Shown here: positions 1 through 8,175 of the stretch, piece by piece
Layout: each line of letters opens with the position of its first letter
How positions within the stretch are numbered: position 1 is the first letter of the stretch
Virus record (IMG/VR): IMGVR_UViG_3300042467_002026
Location: 1 to 23,265 of that record
Direction: 5' to 3' (one strand)
Length of the DNA stretch: 23,265 bases
Source: a virus
The notes under the pieces: generated by a model
Seen by the model: the letters and a program-made list of their open reading frames with translations, nothing else
What the model was told of the DNA's origin: nothing
The model's database searches: none
Translations under genes and position numbers: made by a program

Positions 1-97
1 TAATCCTGGAACACCTGAAAAAAATTATCCCTGCTTATTGTTTGCACTTTTCACCAACCCCGCTTGTGATTATAGTGTTACAGCAAACCTACCACTC
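1..97. other. Left-edge stretch with no confident gene
   Basis: No gene is supported here. On the minus strand there is a perfect TATAAT (positions 74 to 69) just after the stop of the leftmost minus-strand gene. It could be the -10 box of a promoter for leftward genes beyond the edge, but no good -35 box lies 16 to 18 bp upstream. A GTG at 47 opens a minus-strand frame that runs off the edge, too short to judge. No terminator hairpin is visible, so the minus-strand cluster probably continues to the left. Confidence 0.3.
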
Positions 98-322
98 TCA
101 CAGCTCCCGCCCCTCACTGGCATCCAGTCCTATGGCCAACAGTGCCCCCGCCTCAGGTATCGCAGCTCCCTTATGACCCAGCGTCCGCATGATTGCCGTT
201 GCCTCAGTGGGGGTGCCCATATAGAGCAGCCGGCCCGCGCCCATGTAATCCATCGCTCCGCCGAGGCTGGACTGTGCCGCAGCAAGGCTGCCATCTTTTC
301 TAATCACGAAGAACTTATTCAT
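98..322 (-). CDS. Small hypothetical phage protein (74 aa)
   Basis: I do not recognise this protein. It begins MNKFFVIRKDG, then has an alanine- and glycine-rich middle and no clear membrane segment. The N-terminus looks like a short beta hairpin. ATG at 322 is chosen over the GTG at 325 because a GGAG sits about 7 nt upstream of it and because ATG overlaps the previous stop as TGATG, which suggests coupled translation. It is the last complete gene of the leftward cluster. Its place among other tiny unknown genes suggests an early, host-directed role, but that is inference only. Confidence 0.6.
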   Translation of the reverse strand: MNKFFVIRKDGSLAAAQSSLGGAMDYMGAGRLLYMGTPTEATAIMRTLGHKGAAIPEAGALLAIGLDASEGREL

Positions 323-540
323 CACTCATCTCCATCAATCAGTTGTTGCAAGAATTCCTCGGCATCGGACAGTGAATGGAAGTCATCCACGGTGTACCAC
401 CGCCCGTCCTCACGCTGCTGCACCGCCCAGAATTCCACGGCATCCTCGTCCGCGGCGTGCTTTACCTGCGTGACGGCCAGCCCGTCACCGTCCTGCTCCT
501 CAATCGTCATCGGTACTACCCGGTACTTGTTGCTACTCAT
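322..540 (-). CDS. Small acidic hypothetical protein (72 aa)
   Basis: An acidic protein of unknown function. Its sequence has alternating beta-like strands (KYRVVPMTIEEQ, EFWAVQQREDGRWYTVDDF) followed by a helix (LSDAEEFLQQLIDGDE), a simple beta-beta-beta-alpha pattern. A strong AGGAGG lies 7 nt before the ATG at 540, which settles the start. Its stop overlaps the next start as TGATG, so the two genes are probably translated together. Low-molecular-weight acidic early proteins are common in phages and often bind host proteins, but nothing here shows a specific target. Confidence 0.65.
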   Translation of the reverse strand: MSSNKYRVVPMTIEEQDGDGLAVTQVKHAADEDAVEFWAVQQREDGRWYTVDDFHSLSDAEEFLQQLIDGDE

Positions 541-551
541 CGCCGCCCCTC

Positions 552-803
552 CTAGAATCCGAAGGTGTTAGTGTCATTATGCGTGAGATAGACCACGCTA
601 TTAATATTAAAGCTACGGTATCCCTTGGCACGGACATCGAAGACCGTGATGATATCCCGGCCCAGCCTGTCCAGCGCATCCGGACCCACCTTACAGACCA
701 TCGAGCGAAGGCTGCCATCGCCCTTGATAAAGTCTATCCCAATGAACTGGCCAGTGACCGCCGCCTCACCCAAGACCCTGATAATTGCACGTTCCGTACT
801 CAT
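552..803 (-). CDS. Small hypothetical beta-rich protein (83 aa)
   Basis: Unknown protein beginning MSTERAIIRVLGEAAVTGQF. Short alternating hydrophobic strands (FIGIDFIKGDG, SLRSMVCKVG, DIITVFDVRAKGYRSF, INSVVYLTHN) suggest a small all-beta barrel, possibly SH3-like. A longer reading frame starts at 842, but the ATG at 803 has an AAGGAGGAG immediately upstream at ideal spacing, so the shorter form is chosen. This ATG overlaps the stop of the upstream gene as ATGA, indicating translational coupling in the leftward operon. Confidence 0.65.
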   Translation of the reverse strand: MSTERAIIRVLGEAAVTGQFIGIDFIKGDGSLRSMVCKVGPDALDRLGRDIITVFDVRAKGYRSFNINSVVYLTHNDTNTFGF

Positions 804-973
804 ACATTCTCCTCCTTCTTGTTGTGTTCTGAACCGTAACAATCACGCATCTCTTGTATCAACTGATTAATCTTCAGCAGGGATAACTTGAGCCTATGGG
901 CCCTGATACGCGCCTGCCACCTCTCGTGCGCCGTCTGCGCCGCCTCACCGCTACTAGAAAAAAGCCTTGACAT
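800..973 (-). CDS. Small basic helical protein (57 aa)
   Basis: Unknown protein, mostly alpha-helical and basic in the middle (ERWQARIRAHRLKLSLLKINQLIQEMRD). The frame is open back to 1090, but the upstream part is arginine-rich low complexity without a good ribosome site. The second of two tandem ATG codons (973) has an AGGAGG 4 nt upstream and is preferred; the first ATG is only 1 nt from it. The stop overlaps the next start as ATGA. The helix-only, charged make-up fits a small nucleic-acid- or protein-binding early protein, but no motif proves this. Confidence 0.6.
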   Translation of the reverse strand: MSRLFSSSGEAAQTAHERWQARIRAHRLKLSLLKINQLIQEMRDCYGSEHNKKEENV

Positions 974-998
974 CATACCTCCTGCCGCCTTATCGGCA

Positions 999-1205
999 TT
1001 ATTTGACCACAACTTGAGTACTTTTTTTCTGGTCGACCAGCCGCAGCCGCGGGGCCTTTGACCCCCCCGCCTCCGCCGCCGCGCCGCCATTAATCCTTTG
1101 CCGTAGCAGGCCGACCGCTATGATAAACATAATGGTCCCAAGGGCTAGCGTTACTGCCGTGACAGTAAGGGCAGGCACGCCTGATAGAATCCCAATCGCA
1201 TCCAT
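999..1205 (-). CDS. Single-pass membrane protein overlapping its upstream gene (68 aa)
   Basis: One clear membrane segment lies near residues 13 to 34 (ALTVTAVTLALGTIMFIIAV), followed by a basic tail (APRLRLVDQKKSTQVVVK) expected to stay in the cytoplasm. The ATG at 1205 has a GGAGG 6 nt upstream; the in-frame ATG at 1211 touches that GGAGG and is too close. The first 116 bp overlap, in another frame, the end of the 1090-1323 gene. Size and topology would fit a small holin or another membrane-targeting early protein. No endolysin or spanin is seen nearby, so a lysis role is not supported. The good ribosome site and clean hydrophobic segment argue that it is real despite the overlap. Confidence 0.55.
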   Translation of the reverse strand: MDAIGILSGVPALTVTAVTLALGTIMFIIAVGLLRQRINGGAAAEAGGSKAPRLRLVDQKKSTQVVVK

Positions 1206-1323
1206 TCGCATCCTCCAGTTCCTGTGTTACTACCTCAATAAACTCACGCGGTTTCCTTGTCGGCCATACACCTAATTGCTTAGGCGTTTCAATTGCCAGC
1301 TGCCAATCGAATTCATCACTCAC
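1090..1323 (-). CDS. Small CPYC-containing hypothetical protein (77 aa)
   Basis: Unknown protein with a GCDW and a CPYCH motif near its C-terminus. CPYC is the glutaredoxin active-site sequence, but it sits near the C-terminus here and no thioredoxin fold is evident. A small metal-binding knuckle using the three cysteines and the following histidines is more likely. The GTG at 1323 has an AGGAGG 6 nt upstream and is chosen. An in-frame ATG at 1371 with a weaker GGAG is possible (93 aa), but it lies inside a hairpin. The last 116 bp overlap the membrane-protein gene in another frame. Confidence 0.55.
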   Translation of the reverse strand: MSDEFDWQLAIETPKQLGVWPTRKPREFIEVVTQELEDANGCDWDSIRRACPYCHGSNASPWDHYVYHSGRPATAKD

Positions 1324-1349
1324 GGGGTTCCTCCTAGTGGTGGTGGAGA

Positions 1350-1379
1350 CCGGTCGATTCACTACTGACATCGACCCGG
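1350..1379 (-). promoter_or_regulatory. Hairpin between the DUF932 gene and the CPYC gene
   Basis: The minus-strand transcript can form a stem of CCGGGTCGAT pairing with ATCGACCGG (one bulged base) around an 11-nt loop. The alternative ATG at 1371 is part of the stem. There is no following U tract, so this is not a standard terminator. It may be an RNA processing site or may mask the upstream start codon. Confidence 0.4.
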
Positions 1380-1398
1380 CTCCGCCGCATGGATAATA

Positions 1399-2148
1399 CT
1401 AGGCCGCCAGTTGCTCAATCGTCTGTAGGAGTCCATCATTACGGACCTCATTGGCCAGTCCGCCACGCCCGCCGCGCCGCAGGACCTCATTGACCGCGTT
1501 GTAGAATGCCCACATATTTGGTGCGGTGTCCCGCCCGTACCGGCCCGCCCGTACACCTGACAGGGCCTTCTGCATGCGCTTAGAGAGTCCCAGCCCATTG
1601 ACCACCTTGAGCTCAGCCACCATGGTAAGCGGCGTATTCTGCAGGCGCTGCACGGTCCCGCTGATATTCTCAAGGGCACTGATACACGCGGCAATCTGGT
1701 AGTCCATCCTCTTGATGAAGTCCTCAGTCATGGGTCCCTGCACGTGGCGTACCCTATCGTGTTCCGTGATACCCTCACCGATGGTTAGGCCATTGCTACA
1801 AATCAGCCTAAAAAGTCCCGTGCTCAACTTGAGTGATTGCTCGCCATCATAGGAGTTGAACAGTACGAGCTCCGGGAAATACCTGTCATCACCCGTTCCG
1901 CGCAGCTCAGAGAATCTGACCCGTACCACGTGCTTAGTGCTAGTGCGTCCAGATGCCCGCGCCGTGACCGATTCGATACGGTGTCCCATCTTTTCAGCCA
2001 CCCGTGCCACAGACTCCAGCACCGTGCCCGTATCAATCCGCCGATAGCGCGGACCCGTTGACATCTTACCCCGCATGTTCATCTCATCGTTAAATGCCAA
2101 AAAATTATTGATACTCTTAGTGCCAACCTGCCCCGTAAAATTAATCAT
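1399..2148 (-). CDS. DUF932 family protein (phage/plasmid-like protein)
   Basis: Belongs to the DUF932 family (relatives are named phage/plasmid-like protein). Recognisable elements are LVLFNSYDGEQSLKLSTGLFR, then LICSNGLTIGEG, which matches the family's S-x-DG and R-L-x-C-S-N-G core, and later NMWAFYNAVNEVLRR, matching the usual W-x-x-Y-N-A-V-N segment. Biochemical function is unsettled; members occur on phages, plasmids and integrative elements and are often linked to replication or anti-defence. About 249 residues is within the usual size. The ATG at 2148 has a GGGGG 4 nt upstream; the frame is open to a GTG at 2187, with only a weak site. An 11-bp motif shared with another leftward leader lies about 45 to 55 nt upstream. 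Confidence 0.75.
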   Translation of the reverse strand: MINFTGQVGTKSINNFLAFNDEMNMRGKMSTGPRYRRIDTGTVLESVARVAEKMGHRIESVTARASGRTSTKHVVRVRFSELRGTGDDRYFPELVLFNSYDGEQSLKLSTGLFRLICSNGLTIGEGITEHDRVRHVQGPMTEDFIKRMDYQIAACISALENISGTVQRLQNTPLTMVAELKVVNGLGLSKRMQKALSGVRAGRYGRDTAPNMWAFYNAVNEVLRRGGRGGLANEVRNDGLLQTIEQLAA

Positions 2149-2192
2149 AAAGCCCCCGTTATTGTTATCCAGCTTATCGGCCACCACGGCCT

Positions 2193-2203
2193 AAAACTTT
2201 AGT
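2193..2203 (-). promoter_or_regulatory. Shared leader motif ACTAAAGTTTT, copy 1
   Basis: The same 11 bp occur at 3372-3382, in both cases on the minus strand some 45 to 65 nt upstream of a leftward gene start. The 70 bp between the glycosylase-like gene and the DUF932 gene is one of the few gaps in the left arm. No good sigma70 -35/-10 pair is visible here. The motif may be part of a phage-specific promoter or a regulator site. Confidence 0.3.
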
Positions 2204-2256
2204 ACAATCGTATAAACATCTGTAATCATTACACTATTTCAACCGCCGCCCGTAGG

Positions 2257-2826
2257 TTAGAAGGCTGCACCGCGTGCCTCAATCCATGTCACCGCCTGTA
2301 ATGCCTTAGGCGATAGGCGCAGTTGCTGTGCAATGGTTCTGACCGCGAACGCGATATCCTGATACTTCTGGTCTGACATCGCACCCTCGATACCCATCAG
2401 TCTCATCATCCACACGTCGATGGTTACCTCCTTATCGTGACCGGCGTGATAGATATTACTGTAAAATGCCTTTACCTTGTTACCGTTTAGGATATCTAGG
2501 ACCTCATCGTAATCCAACGCCTCAAGGATACACAGTGCCTTACGCTTATTTGCACCGAATGTTGCTACCACCGCCGCCCGACCGTCACGCAGAATGGACT
2601 CCGCATCCACCATATTACGCCCGAACTTATTCCTAGGACTCAAGGCCGCGATGATTCCAGCCACCTGAAACAATGGCCGATTGTATTTTTTGGCCAGTTT
2701 CAGTGTCATGTTGTGGACCTTAGGATACCAATAAATGCCCTCAATGCGTTGTGATAGGTTAGTCCGCAGATACGAGTCCCGCAATGCCCGTCCCATGCCT
2801 ATGGGGTATACACGTGAATTTTTCAT
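2257..2826 (-). CDS. HhH-GPD DNA glycosylase-like protein (189 aa)
   Basis: All-helical protein whose segment order recalls the HhH-GPD base-excision glycosylase superfamily. It has a conserved ALSPRN element (about residues 61 to 66), then GANKRKALCIL, then DILNGNKVKAFYSNI, where a helix-hairpin-helix would lie. Next comes VTIDVWMMRLMG, which resembles the VDTHVxRVxxRLG segment that carries the catalytic aspartate in that superfamily. The C-terminus (LSPKALQAVTWIEARG) matches small uncharacterised phage proteins of the same type. I infer a DNA-base-related role (repair, or removing modified bases from host or rival DNA); activity is not shown. The ATG has AAGGA 8 nt upstream and overlaps the previous stop as ATGA. 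Confidence 0.6.
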   Translation of the reverse strand: MKNSRVYPIGMGRALRDSYLRTNLSQRIEGIYWYPKVHNMTLKLAKKYNRPLFQVAGIIAALSPRNKFGRNMVDAESILRDGRAAVVATFGANKRKALCILEALDYDEVLDILNGNKVKAFYSNIYHAGHDKEVTIDVWMMRLMGIEGAMSDQKYQDIAFAVRTIAQQLRLSPKALQAVTWIEARGAAF

Positions 2827-3038
2827 GCTACATTCCTTTTAATAGTGGGTGTATGTTCAATTTTTTCTGCCACCATGACATCGTCCATATGTATAAACGG
2901 ACTAAGCTCACGCTCCATACGCTCAATGTATCTCAATTCTGCCCGTTCCCGCAGGGCCGCCGACACCCCGCCAACCGTTACCAGTCCTAGTACCATGGCC
3001 AGTGGCATGGCGATTACAAGTATCATCACGGATTCCAT
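2823..3038 (-). CDS. Small N-terminally anchored membrane protein (71 aa)
   Basis: A hydrophobic segment covers about residues 4 to 27 (MILVIAMPLAMVLGLVTVGG). It is followed by a charged helical stretch (LRERAELRYIERMERELSPF) and a short hydrophilic tail, so the protein is probably a single-pass anchor with a cytoplasmic coiled helix. An AGGAG 6 nt before the ATG at 3038 fixes the start. Its stop overlaps the glycosylase-like start as ATGA. Function unknown; it may direct another early protein to the membrane, but this is inference. Confidence 0.6.
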   Translation of the reverse strand: MESVMILVIAMPLAMVLGLVTVGGVSAALRERAELRYIERMERELSPFIHMDDVMVAEKIEHTPTIKRNVA

Positions 3039-3050
3039 CTCATACTCCTG

Positions 3051-3239
3051 TTAGTCGATAGGGCCTATAATGAATTGCAGCCGGTCAACATACGCGAGAA
3101 GGTCCACGGTCCCGTCATCAAGCTCGATTGAGGCATAGTAGTCATTCCCAGTAGCGCCCACCGTCCTCATTTTTACGTGAGATATCCGTACGATATTAAC
3201 CTTTTTGCCGTCCAAATAACCCGTTGCTATGGTTTTCAT
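3051..3239 (-). CDS. Small beta-rich hypothetical protein (62 aa)
   Basis: Unknown protein with alternating strands: IATGYLDGKKVNIVRIS, NDYYASIELDDGTVDLLAY, DRLQFIIGPID. A small beta barrel (SH3- or OB-like) would fit, but there is no family match that I can name. AGGAGG lies 5 nt before the ATG at 3239. That ribosome site is inside the preceding 24-codon gene, whose stop overlaps this start as ATGA, so expression of the two is very likely coupled. Confidence 0.65.
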   Translation of the reverse strand: MKTIATGYLDGKKVNIVRISHVKMRTVGATGNDYYASIELDDGTVDLLAYVDRLQFIIGPID

Positions 3240-3310
3240 AAAACCTCCTGAATGATTAGTGCCAGTATTACGAATGTAAACATTGCTGTTACGCCGATAA
3301 ACAGTGTCAT
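3236..3310 (-). CDS. 24-residue membrane micro-protein
   Basis: A very short open frame, almost entirely hydrophobic (starts MTLFIGVTAMFTFVILALII, ends QEVL), enough for one membrane helix. It has an AGAGGTG about 6 nt upstream of its ATG at 3310, and its TGA overlaps the next gene's ATG as ATGA. It is the first gene of the leftward cluster, nearest the control region. It could be a genuine membrane micro-protein or a translated leader whose passage opens the ribosome site of the next gene. The spacing, coupling and hydrophobicity together make chance less likely. Confidence 0.45.
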   Translation of the reverse strand: MTLFIGVTAMFTFVILALIIQEVL

Positions 3311-3362
3311 TTTTTCACCTCTTGTTACGTGCCGTTGTTTTCTCACTCCTATCTTTACGGTC

Positions 3363-3438
3363 AGTCCGGTAAAAACTTTAGTCCGGGGTAAAAATAAATC
3401 CTAGGACCCTTGTAAAGTCCCCCCTGTCATATGAGTCC
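3363..3438. repeat. Cluster of four AGTCC elements in the divergent control region
   Basis: AGTCC occurs at 3363, 3380, 3416 and 3434, spaced 17, 36 and 18 bp. The first two copies are longer and nearly alike (AGTCCGG, then 0 or 2 G, then TAAAAA). Between them sits AAAACTTTAGT (3372-3382), repeated at 2193-2203. Iterated short elements upstream of the first leftward gene suggest operators for a regulator or an iteron-type binding array. No clear sigma70 promoter for the leftward genes is seen here. Confidence 0.35.
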
Positions 3439-3440
3439 AC

Positions 3441-3680
3441 ACGCCTAGACGCTTGGCTAGACCTGCCAAGTGGGTTAGCAAGCCGCCGCTAATGGAATCT
3501 CCTTCTCCACACTGGGGGATAAATACCTGTAAAGTCGGTCGCTTAGCTGTGATATTCTGGCGGATTACTGGCGGATATCCGTGGAGGACATTACCTGAAA
3601 TGGTAGTATTATTAGCGAGATATGAAAGTGGCAAAACTGCCGTGTGAGGGGGCCCATTTGTCAGGTTTTCTGACGTAAGT
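3441..3680. other. Series of small hairpins in a non-coding stretch
   Basis: Several consecutive inverted repeats occur: CTTGGC/GCCAAG (3452-3470, 7-nt loop), TTAGC/GCTAA (3475-3492), TCTCC/GGGGA (about 3505-3520), the perfect palindrome CGGATATCCG (3572-3581), GGCA-AAAC-TGCC (3630-3641) and GTCAG-GTTTT-CTGAC (3660-3674). None is followed by a T run, so they are not ordinary terminators. No tRNA cloverleaf or TTCGA arm was found. The overlapping frames on both strands here begin with TTG, lack ribosome sites and look like chance. A structured RNA, origin or packaging site is possible. Confidence 0.35.
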
Positions 3681-3697
3681 TACTGAAAGGATGGAAT

Positions 3698-3772
3698 ATG
3701 TCACTATCAGGTATGGGTGATGATATTGGAATATGCTCCCAACATGAAGATACCATTAGCCATACTCATTGA
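3698..3772 (+). CDS. Possible 24-codon micro-ORF in the control region
   Basis: A short frame beginning MSLSGMGDDIGICSQHEDT with AAGGA 6 nt before its ATG. Its TGA overlaps the ATG of a following 42-codon frame as TGATG. No homology or motif is recognised. It could be a real micro-gene, a regulatory leader peptide, or chance. A different 25-codon hydrophobic frame (3744-3821, KIPLAILIDVLLLLPMWG) overlaps both but lacks a ribosome site and is considered less likely. Confidence 0.25.
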   Translation: MSLSGMGDDIGICSQHEDTISHTH

Positions 3773-3900
3773 TGTACTTTTGCTACTCCCCATGTGGGGC
3801 CTATGTAAGTATTTGGAATAAGGACTATTTGACTGTAGGCTGGCTGGATACTAGGGATGGCTGGAAGGGATACAAGAGGACCTTAGCTCTATCATCTTAA
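3772..3900 (+). CDS. Possible 42-residue aromatic-rich small protein
   Basis: The frame starts inside the stop of the preceding micro-ORF (TGATG) and ends at a TAA just before a polypurine tract (3898-3922). The product begins MYFCYSPCGAYVSIWNKDY and is rich in Tyr and Trp, with a basic C-terminal third (GWKGYKRTLALSS). There is no ribosome site of its own, so it would depend on re-initiation. No family is recognised. The balanced composition looks protein-like, but the frame is short and may be fortuitous. Confidence 0.25.
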   Translation: MYFCYSPCGAYVSIWNKDYLTVGWLDTRDGWKGYKRTLALSS

Positions 3901-3983
3901 AGAAAAAGAGAAAAAGAAAAGATACCTGTTGTGTGTGTACAGTCAATTCTACCCTACCCAGATTCCCTGTCAAGAGAAATCTA

Positions 3984-4012
3984 TTGACATCATCTTGGTA
4001 ATTGCCTAATAT
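3984..4012 (+). promoter_or_regulatory. Sigma70-type promoter for the rightward genes
   Basis: A perfect -35 TTGACA (3984-3989), a 17-bp spacer and a -10 TAATAT (4007-4012, 4 of 6 consensus). Transcription would begin near 4019, about 22 nt before the ATG at 4041. It lies at the right edge of the divergent control region and is the best candidate for starting the rightward transcript. Confidence 0.65.
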
Positions 4013-4040
4013 ATTACCAGTGCTCTCATTGGAATATAGC

Positions 4041-4325
4041 ATGCCCGCTAAGCCTTTAAGAAATAGATTAATCCCGTATAAGCTACTTATTCTAATGCTT
4101 TACGGCGAGCATCATTTCGTCATTCGCAGCGGACTCTCTGTAACTCTTAATCTGGGTCCATTATCAAGGCATCTCCGTGTTTCCTCCTCCCGACTACGGG
4201 ACCAGCTTGACTGGCTCCTCACCAATCGCTATTTCTCCTCCGTAGCGATGTCCCGTGGAGTTGCCGTTGTGGACCTGCGGCTTCCTGCTGGCCTTGTGCC
4301 AGCGGGGAGTCCCTCCCCCGAATAA
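4041..4325 (+). CDS. Winged-helix-like putative DNA-binding protein (94 aa)
   Basis: Basic protein beginning MPAKPLRNRLIPYKLLILM. The middle (LGPLSRHLRVSSSRLRDQLDWL) reads as a helix-turn-helix, followed by LLTNRYFSSV and GVAVVDLRLPAG, which would form the wing strands. That order matches small winged-helix transcription factors, so a regulator of the divergent region or a terminase-like DNA binder is likely. The frame is open from 4002, but the promoter -10 box covers that first ATG, so the ATG at 4041 is chosen. Its ribosome site is weak (TGGAATA). The same TGGAATA occurs three more times upstream, which would fit autoregulation; this is inference. Confidence 0.55.
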   Translation: MPAKPLRNRLIPYKLLILMLYGEHHFVIRSGLSVTLNLGPLSRHLRVSSSRLRDQLDWLLTNRYFSSVAMSRGVAVVDLRLPAGLVPAGSPSPE

Positions 4326-4333
4326 GGACATTT

Positions 4334-4843
4334 GTGCGAAAAAGTAGCAATAACGATGGGGGCAATGGAACCACTCCCACTAATATCATATCAGTGGCGG
4401 CCCATGAGCTTATCTTCATCCCTACCCCCAGCCAAAGGCAGGTAAAGGCTAGGCTGGTTGTCCGCCTCGCAGATAACCCAATAATTGAGATATCTGCTAT
4501 CACCCTGGCAGAGGCCCAGCAACTTACCGGCAGCAGTCAGCTTAAGGACTGGTGGGGAAAGCCCGGATTCCGGGAATGGTTCTTGGACCAGAATGAGTAC
4601 CGGCAACGCCTGGAATACCTATTCAGCCTGGCCCTGGACGCCGCCGAGGAAATTCTCCTATCCACCGATATAAAGGTGCAGGGGGCCCGCGTGGCCATGA
4701 TAAAGCTGCTGGCCGAACTCTCCAATAAAACTCCCAAGGATGCTCCTGTAAAATACAAGGATGAGGCCATTGGCAAAATGAGTCAGGCTGAACTTGAGGC
4801 CTTCTTGGAAAAGAGTGGCATAGCTATCACCGGGTCCAAATGA
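4334..4843 (+). CDS. Putative small terminase subunit (169 aa)
   Basis: Starts with GTG at 4334, with AAGGA 6 nt upstream. After a disordered N-terminus and a short beta-like part (ISVAAHELIFIPTPSQRQVKARLVV is split by predicted strands), the protein becomes helical (EAQQLTGSSQLKDWWGK, then a long helix from about residue 83 to 130, then KMSQAELEAFLEKSGI). A helix-rich core ending in an acidic amphipathic helix is typical of phage small terminases, which recognise the phage DNA and hand it to the large subunit. No single diagnostic motif is present and the large terminase lies 6 kb downstream, so the call is tentative. The stop overlaps the next start as ATGA. Confidence 0.4.
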   Translation: MRKSSNNDGGNGTTPTNIISVAAHELIFIPTPSQRQVKARLVVRLADNPIIEISAITLAEAQQLTGSSQLKDWWGKPGFREWFLDQNEYRQRLEYLFSLALDAAEEILLSTDIKVQGARVAMIKLLAELSNKTPKDAPVKYKDEAIGKMSQAELEAFLEKSGIAITGSK

Positions 4844-5859: not shown

Positions 5860-8175
5860 ATGAGTCAAATTAAAAAGAAGTTTATTGCCGACCGGGCAGT
5901 AGACGGCAGCAAGATTCTGCTGCTTAACAACCAACCAATCAAGGCATTGATTGACAACGGAGAATTTGAGCAGGACCTGTTCAAGTTTTCTGGTGGCAAC
6001 AAGTTTGAGTTCCTGGCTGCACCAACCATCGGTGGATATGCAGTTGACGCGGACCAGCTGGTCAACAAGCAGTTCGTGGACCGGGAAGTCTCTGCTGAAG
6101 AGACCCGTGCCGAAGCTGCCGAGAGTGCACTCTCCAGCCGTCTCTCGACCATCGAAGGCGCTGACAGCGTCCCAGGCTCAGTCGCCAAGAGTTTGAAGGA
6201 TTCTAAGGATTACACAGATTCTGCCATTACGTCGCTTATCAACGGCGCACCAGGCATGCTGGATACCCTCAAGGAAATCGCTGATGCGATTGAAGCAGAC
6301 GAAAGTGTCGGCGCTGCGCTGGCAACAACCGTAGCCAATAACCTCCAGGAAGCCAAAGACTACACGGACACCGAAGTTTCCACCGAGCGTTCACGCGCTA
6401 TGGGCGTTGAGAGTTCCCTTGCTTCTGATATGGCTGACGAAGAAGGTCGCGCTATGTCGGAAGAGGCCCGCATTGAGGGCAAGGTAGACCAAGAGATTAG
6501 TGACCGTCAGTCGGCCATTAGTTCTGAGCAGTCTGCTCGCCAGTCTGCTATTAGTGCTGAGCAGTCCGCTCGCGAAGCCGCCGTCTCTGCTGAAGAGTCT
6601 CGCGCCGAAGGTGAAGAGGCCCGTATTGAGGGTCTCGTTACCACTGAGGTTGCCCGTGCCCTAGCTGCCGAAGGCGTTCTGTCAAGTGCTATCTCTGCTG
6701 AAACCTCTCGTGCTCAGGGCCAAGAGGCTGCTATCGACACACGCTTCGTTAATAACGAGGCCGCTCACTCGGCTGAAGTGGCTCGCGCCATGGGCGAAGA
6801 GGAGCGTATCGAAGACAAGTTGGACCAGGAAATTTCTGACCGCCAATCGGCTGTCTCTTCGGAGCAATCAGCTCGTCAGTCGGCAGTATCTTCTGCTTTG
6901 CAGGAAGCTAAAGATTACACCGATGCTCAAATTCTGGAAGAAGAAGAACTCCGCGATGCGGAAACCTCTGCTCTTTCTTCGCGTCTGGATATTGTTGAAG
7001 GCGAAGACACGGTAGAAGGCTCTGTTGCTAAGGCCGAAAAAGATGCCAAGGAATTCGCATCTGCTGAGGTCCTTACGGAGAAGAACCGCGCCGAGTCGGC
7101 TGAGTCGGGTCTCCAATCAGCTATCAATACGGAAAAGGGTCGCGTTGATGCAATCCTTTTGGCATCTGATGCTGATAAAGATTCTTTCGCTGAGATTGTC
7201 CAGCTTATCAACAGTGTTGATACAACTAACGATACTGCATTCGCCTCCTACGTTCTGAGCAATAACTCTGCTCTTAGCCAGGAAGTCTCTGACCGCCAGG
7301 CTGCTGTCTCTGCTGAAGAGAGCCGCGCTCAGGGTGAAGAATCACGTATCGAAGGCCTCCTTACTCAGGAAGTCTCGGACCGCGAAGCCGCTGTTTCTTC
7401 TGCTAGCCAGGCAGCAATGGACTTTGCTCAGGGTATTAGCAATTCCATGGCTGTGGAACTTGCTGCTGAGGTTACTCGCGCAACTAACTCTGAAGCCGCT
7501 ATTCAGTTATCGCTCGAAGAAGAAGTTACCCGCGCAACTGATGTAGAAGCAGGTCTTCAGTCTCAGCTTGAGCAGGAAATCTCGGACCGTGAGGCGGCAG
7601 TAAGTGCTGAGCAGTCGGCTCGTGAGGCTGCTGTATCTGTAGAGCAAAACCGTGCTCAGGGTGAAGAGTCTCGCATCGAAGGCCTTGTCACCTCCGAAAC
7701 CTCTCGTGCCACGTTAGCTGAAGCCCTACTGTCAGGTGATATCTCCATCGAGCAGAGCCGTGCTATGGCAGCCGAAGAGGCTCTTGCTGGCGACGTACTA
7801 GACGAACAAACCCGCGCTATGGATGAAGAATCTCGTATTGAGGGTCTCTTGTCCTCTGAAGTTTCTCGTGCTGAAGGCGCTGAGAGCATGCTCTCTGGCC
7901 GTCTTGACGTTCTGGAAGCAGTGCTCCCACGCAAAGAGACGATGGAAATTTCGGCTGAGCAGGCATCGCAGGGATACATTGATTTGTCAATGCAGGCTAT
8001 GGAGCACAGCGTTCACATGTTCGTTGGCCCTCTCTATGCAGTTGAAGGCATCGACTACGAAGTATCTGTTTTCAACGGAGAAGTTACTCGCATTACCTTC
8101 ATGGGTCAGCTGGCCTCTGGTGGCGTGAGTGAAATCACTGAAGGCGACCAGGTTCAAGTCAAGTACATGAAGTAA
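5860..8175 (+). CDS. Long coiled-coil tail or whisker fibre (771 aa)
   Basis: N-terminal 70 residues (KKFIADRAVDGSKILLLNNQ) form an attachment-type head. Residues about 70 to 165 include INGAPGMLDTLKEIADAIE, a segment common in phage fibres. From about 170 to 685 the protein is an alanine- and glutamate-rich coiled coil built on 11-residue units such as QSAISAEQSAR and EAAVSAEESRA, with a second break near 425 to 470 (ILLASDADKDSFAEIVQLI). The last 80 residues are a beta domain ending GDQVQVKYMK. It should be a trimeric stalk of the virion. AGGGGA lies about 11 nt before the ATG. Codons differ from neighbours (Arg is nearly always CGT/CGC), suggesting high expression. A terminator follows. 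Confidence 0.8.
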   Translation: MSQIKKKFIADRAVDGSKILLLNNQPIKALIDNGEFEQDLFKFSGGNKFEFLAAPTIGGYAVDADQLVNKQFVDREVSAEETRAEAAESALSSRLSTIEGADSVPGSVAKSLKDSKDYTDSAITSLINGAPGMLDTLKEIADAIEADESVGAALATTVANNLQEAKDYTDTEVSTERSRAMGVESSLASDMADEEGRAMSEEARIEGKVDQEISDRQSAISSEQSARQSAISAEQSAREAAVSAEESRAEGEEARIEGLVTTEVARALAAEGVLSSAISAETSRAQGQEAAIDTRFVNNEAAHSAEVARAMGEEERIEDKLDQEISDRQSAVSSEQSARQSAVSSALQEAKDYTDAQILEEEELRDAETSALSSRLDIVEGEDTVEGSVAKAEKDAKEFASAEVLTEKNRAESAESGLQSAINTEKGRVDAILLASDADKDSFAEIVQLINSVDTTNDTAFASYVLSNNSALSQEVSDRQAAVSAEESRAQGEESRIEGLLTQEVSDREAAVSSASQAAMDFAQGISNSMAVELAAEVTRATNSEAAIQLSLEEEVTRATDVEAGLQSQLEQEISDREAAVSAEQSAREAAVSVEQNRAQGEESRIEGLVTSETSRATLAEALLSGDISIEQSRAMAAEEALAGDVLDEQTRAMDEESRIEGLLSSEVSRAEGAESMLSGRLDVLEAVLPRKETMEISAEQASQGYIDLSMQAMEHSVHMFVGPLYAVEGIDYEVSVFNGEVTRITFMGQLASGGVSEITEGDQVQVKYMK
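6376..7914 (+). repeat. 33-bp-period repeats encoding 11-residue coiled-coil units
   Basis: Within the fibre gene, units such as QSAISSEQSAR, QSAISAEQSAR, EAAVSAEESRA and EGEEARIEGLV follow each other in blocks of 11, with Ala, Ser and Ile recurring at fixed positions. The same residues use different codons from copy to copy (for example TCG, TCT, TCC and TCA for Ser), so the DNA is far less repetitive than the protein. Confidence 0.7.

Follow-up and report, generated by a model that had tools for sequence, protein, structure and literature searches.

A phage gene of family DUF7178 that probably encodes a divergent HhH-GPD-fold DNA glycosylase

Base excision has been linked to phage–host conflict by the anti-phage glycosylases Brig1 and Brig3, the first of which belongs to the uracil-DNA glycosylase superfamily, with its alpha/beta fold; among the enzymes of the HhH-GPD fold, EndoIII and MutY carry a C-terminal four-cysteine iron-sulfur cluster. 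Brig3 is given as a homologue of Brig1 in the available part of PMC13160076. The available text of PMC3397491 describes the A-domain of glycosylases of the OGG1 and AlkA type, and reports that a strictly conserved C-terminal lysine of OGG2 tells 8-oxoguanine (8-oxoG) from guanine, truncation abolishing 8-oxoG cleavage and leaving the apurinic/apyrimidinic (AP)-lyase activity in place. For phages, the available portion of PMC5336643 describes a protein of phage Sf3 that belongs to PF00730. Here we describe a gene of IMG/VR virus record IMGVR_UViG_3300042467_002026, the whole 23,265-base record of an uncultured phage (hereafter the window), and conclude, with a probability of roughly 0.8 that applies to the enzyme class and not to the role, that its product, a member of the phage family DUF7178, is a divergent DNA glycosylase with the HhH-GPD fold. 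From the profiles and the predicted model the enzyme is most likely bifunctional, the activity and the lyase step being proposed by analogy with its homologues.

Predicted fold and profile relationships

The open reading frame (ORF) lies at 2257–2826 on the minus strand, begins with ATG and has 189 codons. Its product matches the Pfam family DUF7178 (PF23802) over residues 13–186 (E 3.5e-34; 118.9 bits, against a curated cut-off of 27) and PHROG 3842 (E 1.4e-37), families to which neither Pfam nor PHROGs assigns a function. Judged by these matches and the many homologues, the ORF is a real gene, and its product, which has the invariant residues of the family, is an ordinary full-length DUF7178 member. 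The protein is identical to a 189-amino-acid (aa) ORF product on two other IMG/VR contigs, pieces of which match the window over 10.8 kb at 100% and over 10.5 kb at 99.8%.

For the comparisons below, 48 representatives were chosen from 82 matched loci (70 distinct proteins), collected with the patterns LNGNKVK and ALSP[NR]NK[WF] and by whole-protein matches. Because such patterns may bias the conserved residues, in particular 61–68 and 113–119, 18 phage proteins that had been located by tblastn and read from annotated records were added for a 67-row alignment. The AlphaFold2 model built with the 48 sequences is confident (predicted local distance difference test, pLDDT, 91.6; predicted template modelling score, pTM, 0.87), contains ten helices and no strands, and as a prediction has the all-helical HhH-GPD fold. 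In VIA-align the OGG2 enzymes come first (3knt, Z 14.0, 2.9 Å over 166 aligned residues; 3n0u, 13.7; 3fhg, 13.1; 3fhf, 12.3), followed by EndoIII (10.1), AGOG (10.0), MagIII (9.4) and human OGG1 (9.2), and every one of the best 50 of 183 chains with Z of at least 2 is a DNA glycosylase or the homologue Mag2. The Foldseek list is likewise led by OGG2 and OGG1 enzymes, the top five rows all being OGG2 with a probability of 1.00. The best Z of a helical model that has no clear match can be as high as about 14 through a common arrangement of helices, and sequence evidence was therefore sought.

This evidence comes from profile–profile comparisons (hhalign) with alignments of OGG2 (15 rows), EndoIII (12) and MutY (12) drawn from Bacteroidota genomes. 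The default 48-row profile scores 34.6 with OGG2 (E 1.7e-4), and 45.6 (E 1.9e-6) when aligned in the slower MAFFT mode; 200 column-shuffled OGG2 profiles give a mean of 13.5 and a maximum of 21.9, and the reversed profile gives 12.1. As yardsticks, the true pair OGG2 and EndoIII scores 28.8, and OGG2 and MutY 17.1. With 67 rows the scores are 43.2 for OGG2 (maximum of 200 shuffles, 21.7) and 29.4 for EndoIII, a value reached by none of 200 shuffles (maximum 21.4). A merged OGG2 and EndoIII profile gives 49.5 (E 3.7e-7), a figure that stands without a shuffle control. MutY alone was rejected as a profile relative since it gave no usable match.

Candidate catalytic residues and proposed mechanism

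The residues on which the assignment turns are located as follows.

2257..2826, minus strand: probable DUF7178 / HhH-GPD-fold glycosylase gene, 189 aa (Pfam, PHROG, predicted model)
2635..2640, minus strand: S63-P64, invariant in 67/67 rows; counterpart of the OGG2 T-P by eye only
2452..2484, minus strand: GNKVKAFYSNI, residues 115–125, putative helix-hairpin-helix region with G115-x-K117, paired with the G-x-K of EndoIII
2476..2478, minus strand: K117, proposed Schiff-base (catalytic) lysine, invariant in 67/67 rows, paired by profile in most alignments
2392..2427, minus strand: VTIDVWMMRLMG, residues 134–145, GPD-type segment by profile alignment
2416..2418, minus strand: D137, proposed catalytic aspartate, invariant in 67/67 rows, on the Asp of OGG2 and EndoIII
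2284..2298, minus strand: QAVTW, Q177–W181, proposed base pocket; Q177 and W181 invariant, W181 paired with the OGG2 Trp

In the 67-row alignment 19 positions were examined, and ten of these are invariant (W33, Y34, S63, P64, N71, K117, F121, D137, Q177 and W181). The other nine (A61, L62, N66, K67, K96, A97, G115, A178 and R185) vary among the 18 added phage proteins, and their invariance in the first set may thus partly reflect the search patterns or narrower sampling. The pattern-found and the tblastn-found sets alike keep K117 and D137 without exception, and the retention of K117, F121 and D137 in every row indicates that the conservation of the motif exceeds chance. The residue two past D137 is histidine in 53 rows and tryptophan in 14, and is tryptophan in the protein of the window.

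In all printed OGG2 and EndoIII profile alignments D137 falls on the catalytic aspartate, which identifies it, at the level of aligned profiles, as the catalytic Asp of the GPD segment; W181 pairs with the OGG2 tryptophan. K117 falls on the catalytic lysine in the 67-row EndoIII alignment, in that with the merged OGG2 and EndoIII profile, and in the non-significant 48-row EndoIII alignment, and is likely, short of proof, to be its equivalent. In the AlphaFold2 model a helix at residues 116–126 covers the GNKVKAFYSNI region. The earlier note on this stretch, made from the letters and their translations, had named this ORF and picked out both GNKVKAFYSNI and VTIDVWMMRLMG, and all three are confirmed. 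Its reading of the product as HhH-GPD-like is supported by the confident model and its best structural matches, and the fold check it proposed, which looked for an unrelated predicted fold, was run and returned HhH-GPD glycosylases; the aspartate it singled out is D137. It was also right that no named enzyme is matched, as far as sequence searches go: NCBIfam gave a chance match only, the Protein Data Bank (PDB) nothing of value and Pfam DUF7178 alone.

Several observations weigh against the assignment. First, at E up to 1 a Pfam-A scan returns DUF7178 as the sole model, with no match to PF00730 or to the OGG2 model PF22175; PF00730 matches none of the 48 members and is absent from the 23 families that those 48 match, and a PF00730 scan was positive in neither of two records and in all 14 of the control genomes. 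Searches of PDB sequences gave chance matches only, whether the query was this one protein or the family profile. Secondly, Foldseek gives only weak E-values, the best being 1.4e-2 and all of them above 1e-3, and unrelated proteins appear lower in that list at low probability. Thirdly, the 48-row profile does not match EndoIII significantly (20.2 by default, 19.0 in the slower MAFFT mode), and the match to MutY is never clearly significant (21.5, 21.7 and 15.9). Finally, in the OGG2-only alignments that reach the region K117 lies one residue off the catalytic lysine, and the canonical L-P-G-V/I-G hairpin is not kept. The weak E-values and the missing Pfam match, like the Z of about 14 that unmatched helical models attain, are what would be expected if this were some other helical phage protein with a coincidental resemblance to the HhH-GPD fold. 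We consider this very improbable, since the best 50 of the 183 VIA-align chains all come from one superfamily and the profile signal is independent of the model, with none of the 200 shuffles near it. A homologue that has the HhH-GPD fold without catalysis and does no more than bind DNA that is distorted or abasic, the function hinted at for Mag2 by its structure entry's title, would fit the presence of Mag2 (4b22) among the structural matches (Z 8.4); this too is improbable, if less so, as the invariance of K117 and D137 in 67 of 67 rows would hardly be needed for binding alone.

If the protein is a bifunctional HhH-GPD glycosylase, the helix-hairpin-helix would grip the DNA backbone and the base would be flipped into a pocket of which W181 and Q177 form part. 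K117 would then attack the sugar at C1′ with D137 stabilising the charge, the base would depart, and the resulting lysine–sugar Schiff base would nick the strand by beta-elimination. The target is probably a base that the enzyme recognises in some way other than that of OGG2.

Distribution, genome context and possible roles

Homologues were found by tblastn in 127 phage records, each at less than 60% identity. By name these are phages of Mycobacterium (48), Gordonia (25), Streptomyces (7) and Microbacterium (7), followed by Synechococcus, Rhodococcus, Lentibacter, Siovirus and Roseobacter with 5 each. An alignment-based scan of IMG/VR gave at least 533 relatives among 599 pattern-matched stretches, and the best 80 of these were used further. 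A scan of bacterial and archaeal genomes with one pattern gave a single relative among 26 stretches, in a Flavobacteriaceae metagenome-assembled genome, and a plasmid scan gave three, all from Streptomyces; within the databases searched, DUF7178 thus appears almost only in phages. The idea that these proteins are glycosylases is not new, and is already present in GenBank, where members are named N-glycosylase/DNA lyase, N-glycosylase, DNA glycosylase or glycosylase, and elsewhere glycosyltransferase, endonuclease or hypothetical protein. The glycosyltransferase label is carried by members in Rhodococcus phages Jflix2 and Madraxi and the endonuclease label by one in Mycobacterium phage prophiT49-2; both conflict with the prediction, as the DUF7178 fold would be that of a glycosylase. 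A literature search for 'DUF7178' returned nothing, and other searches showed no study of the family among the matches listed.

The DUF7178 gene tends to lie close to a genome end, being within 10% of a record end in 35 of 47 phage records (median 3.4%) that were hand-picked from the 127 by no fixed rule, with RefSeq copies and many near-identical phages omitted. Of the 60 listed ThyX records taken as a yardstick (from 2305), 18 have the gene that close to an end; the figure is 7 of 49 once 11 rows of T4-like cyanophages are left out. Phage Panamaxus (50.1 kb) has both genes, with ThyX at 32.3 kb and the DUF7178 member at 47.9 kb. Points that detract from this pattern are that Siovirus and some cyanophages have the gene internally, that related phages are counted repeatedly, and that certain records are circular (S-CRES3, S-CBP2) or start at an arbitrary point; because of the last two the end bias is to be read as a tendency and not as a test.

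A second context is provided by Rctr197k_173 of Virus Rctr197k (L159:2012-8131), a 2039-aa polyvalent protein with two DUF7178 domains, the second split by an insert such that the matches fall in three stretches. Its other parts include two InPase stretches, a weak ParB-like stretch and a 2′-5′ RNA-ligase-like domain, and a virion structural protein is encoded three genes beyond it; a scan for relatives of the Rctr197k DUF7178 domain found none. In BFVD a similar fold occurs inside long proteins, some of them named ART-PolyVal or Large polyvalent. Polyvalent proteins enter with the DNA by injection, according to the available text of PMC7824862, and the main text of PMC5512222, a paper on polyvalent proteins, does not contain the words 'glycosylase' or 'base excision', as far as that text is available. 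The protein of the window is itself a stand-alone 189-aa protein and not polyvalent.

Together, the genome-end tendency and the occurrence in polyvalent proteins suggest that the DUF7178 protein probably acts at the start of infection, a timing read from position and context. Action at that stage fits repair of entering DNA as well as counter-defence, and the two roles are not separated by it. The earlier note had put forward damaged bases, modified bases and counter-defence, each as no more than a possibility. We tentatively and slightly favour the repair of damaged bases in the entering phage DNA over the removal of bases tied to host defence or host DNA. On that alternative, the enzyme would be produced or injected without delay and would strip out modified bases that are host-specific or defence-related, or else leave the host DNA full of abasic sites. 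It draws on the same end placement, on the company of InPase and 2′-5′ RNA-ligase-like domains near a virion structural gene, and on similar folds in long proteins, some labelled polyvalent, a kind of protein described as entering by injection, and we regard it as possible. Early repair predicts the same placement, however, no modified host base or defence target has been identified, and cytosine methylase is a neighbour at only 4 of 49 loci. More doubtfully, we speculate that DUF7178 is a phage-specific HhH-GPD branch of early conflict enzymes, carried in by the virion as part of polyvalent proteins or expressed first from the end of the genome, that excise a host-imposed or host-specific base; if so, phages would turn base excision on the host as bacteria turn Brig enzymes on phages. 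The question raised is whether base excision at the start of infection repairs phage DNA or disarms the host, and the polyvalent occurrence makes the latter option worth testing.

Neighbouring genes offer little more. Rough gene calls at 49 loci gave no conserved neighbour, the commonest adjacent cluster occurring at 3 of 47 upstream and 3 of 46 downstream positions. ThyX is present at 10 of the 49 loci, 0.75 to 6 kb from the DUF7178 gene; it and the cytosine methylase, each cluster named by Pfam from one representative, were dropped as functional partners because the loci are too few. The window and contig proteins that were searched (5, 10 and 10, not every ORF) included no recognisable base-modification gene.

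Within the window the putative glycosylase gene stands in a leftward, replication-side cluster adjoining a gene for a DUF932 protein, and to its right are encoded the terminase large subunit and a P22/SU10-like portal protein (Pfam, PHROGs). On an overlapping IMG/VR contig the cluster continues with a Clp-type protease, a dATP/dGTP diphosphohydrolase-like protein and a family-A DNA polymerase; also encoded there are a protein that matches RuvC weakly, a GIY-YIG protein and another protease of the Clp type. The earlier note's description of the gene as part of an early cluster is a reasonable one, given that the leftward cluster leads to the DNA polymerase, the timing again being read from gene content. 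We note that the two Clp-protease-type genes of this phage (L001:13033-13785 and L015:3642-4229) are different and that the second matches head maturation protease PHROGs. The DUF932 gene (1399–2187, minus strand) lies just downstream of the putative glycosylase gene, and its product has partial matches in 22 phage records, many of about 350 kb (Erwinia, Serratia, Cronobacter and Pectobacterium phages). In the structural region, 5860–8175 (plus strand) encodes a 771-aa protein with the degenerate repeats SRAxGEExRIEG and QEVSDRxAAVS, perhaps a fibrous virion protein to judge from these repeats. One further feature was noted in the window.

3946..4012, both strands: back-to-back sigma-70-like promoter matches, consensus matches only, 11/12 (minus) and 10/12 (plus)

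The two matches overlap, with TTGACA on each strand, and could possibly mark the start of the leftward operon; window positions 1–4500 contain 14 promoter-like sites, against a shuffle mean of 6.0. RNA folding of 2200–2260 (minus strand) showed nothing unusual, and a tRNA search found none.

Comparison with described glycosylases

The DUF7178 protein shares with OGG2 (PF22175; M. jannaschii 3knt and T. maritima 3n0u) its size, its predicted helical fold, the position of the aspartate and a tryptophan near the C-terminus, and probably the position of the lysine. Both in structure and among single profiles OGG2 is the closest match, and relatives of the gene occur in marine cyanophages and roseophages, all of which would suit a true OGG2-type 8-oxoguanine DNA glycosylase that repairs oxidised guanine. 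We nonetheless think this unlikely. The C-terminal lysine, needed for 8-oxoG excision according to the available text of PMC3397491 and found in 15 of 15 OGG2 rows, is absent from the DUF7178 protein, which ends in GAAF, and none of the varied C-termini of the 18 phage homologues is a lysine; because this 8-oxoG sensor is missing, the protein is not regarded as OGG2 proper. Three IMG/VR members do end in lysine, such that one is possible elsewhere in the family. Furthermore, the invariant aspartate of OGG2 (D199), four residues before the tryptophan, is Q177 in the DUF7178 protein, and the hairpin is non-canonical in the latter.

EndoIII and MutY share the predicted HhH-GPD fold, and EndoIII has an Asp-Arg pair five residues apart, as does this member of the family (D137 and R142), but the four-cysteine iron-sulfur motif of EndoIII and MutY is not present in the DUF7178 protein, which has a single cysteine (C99). 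The N-terminal beta-sheet A-domain of OGG1 and AlkA is likewise missing from the strand-free model. T4 endonuclease V, the pyrimidine dimer glycosylase, is also a phage-borne base-excision repair enzyme, and is not known to be related to DUF7178; S-CRES3 has genes annotated as DUF7178-type and as pyrimidine dimer DNA glycosylase. What the finding adds is an assignment to an enzyme class with residues named, the missing OGG2-type sensor, and the polyvalent and genome-end contexts; a common phage family with no assigned function gains a testable enzyme class and named candidate catalytic residues. Brig1 and Brig3 would resemble the DUF7178 protein in linking base excision to phage–host conflict but are not HhH-GPD enzymes, and the all-helical DUF7178 model differs from the alpha/beta fold of Brig1. 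From profiles and predicted structure, the DUF7178 protein is probably a branch of its own that acts like a bifunctional HhH-GPD glycosylase and is neither OGG2, EndoIII nor OGG1.
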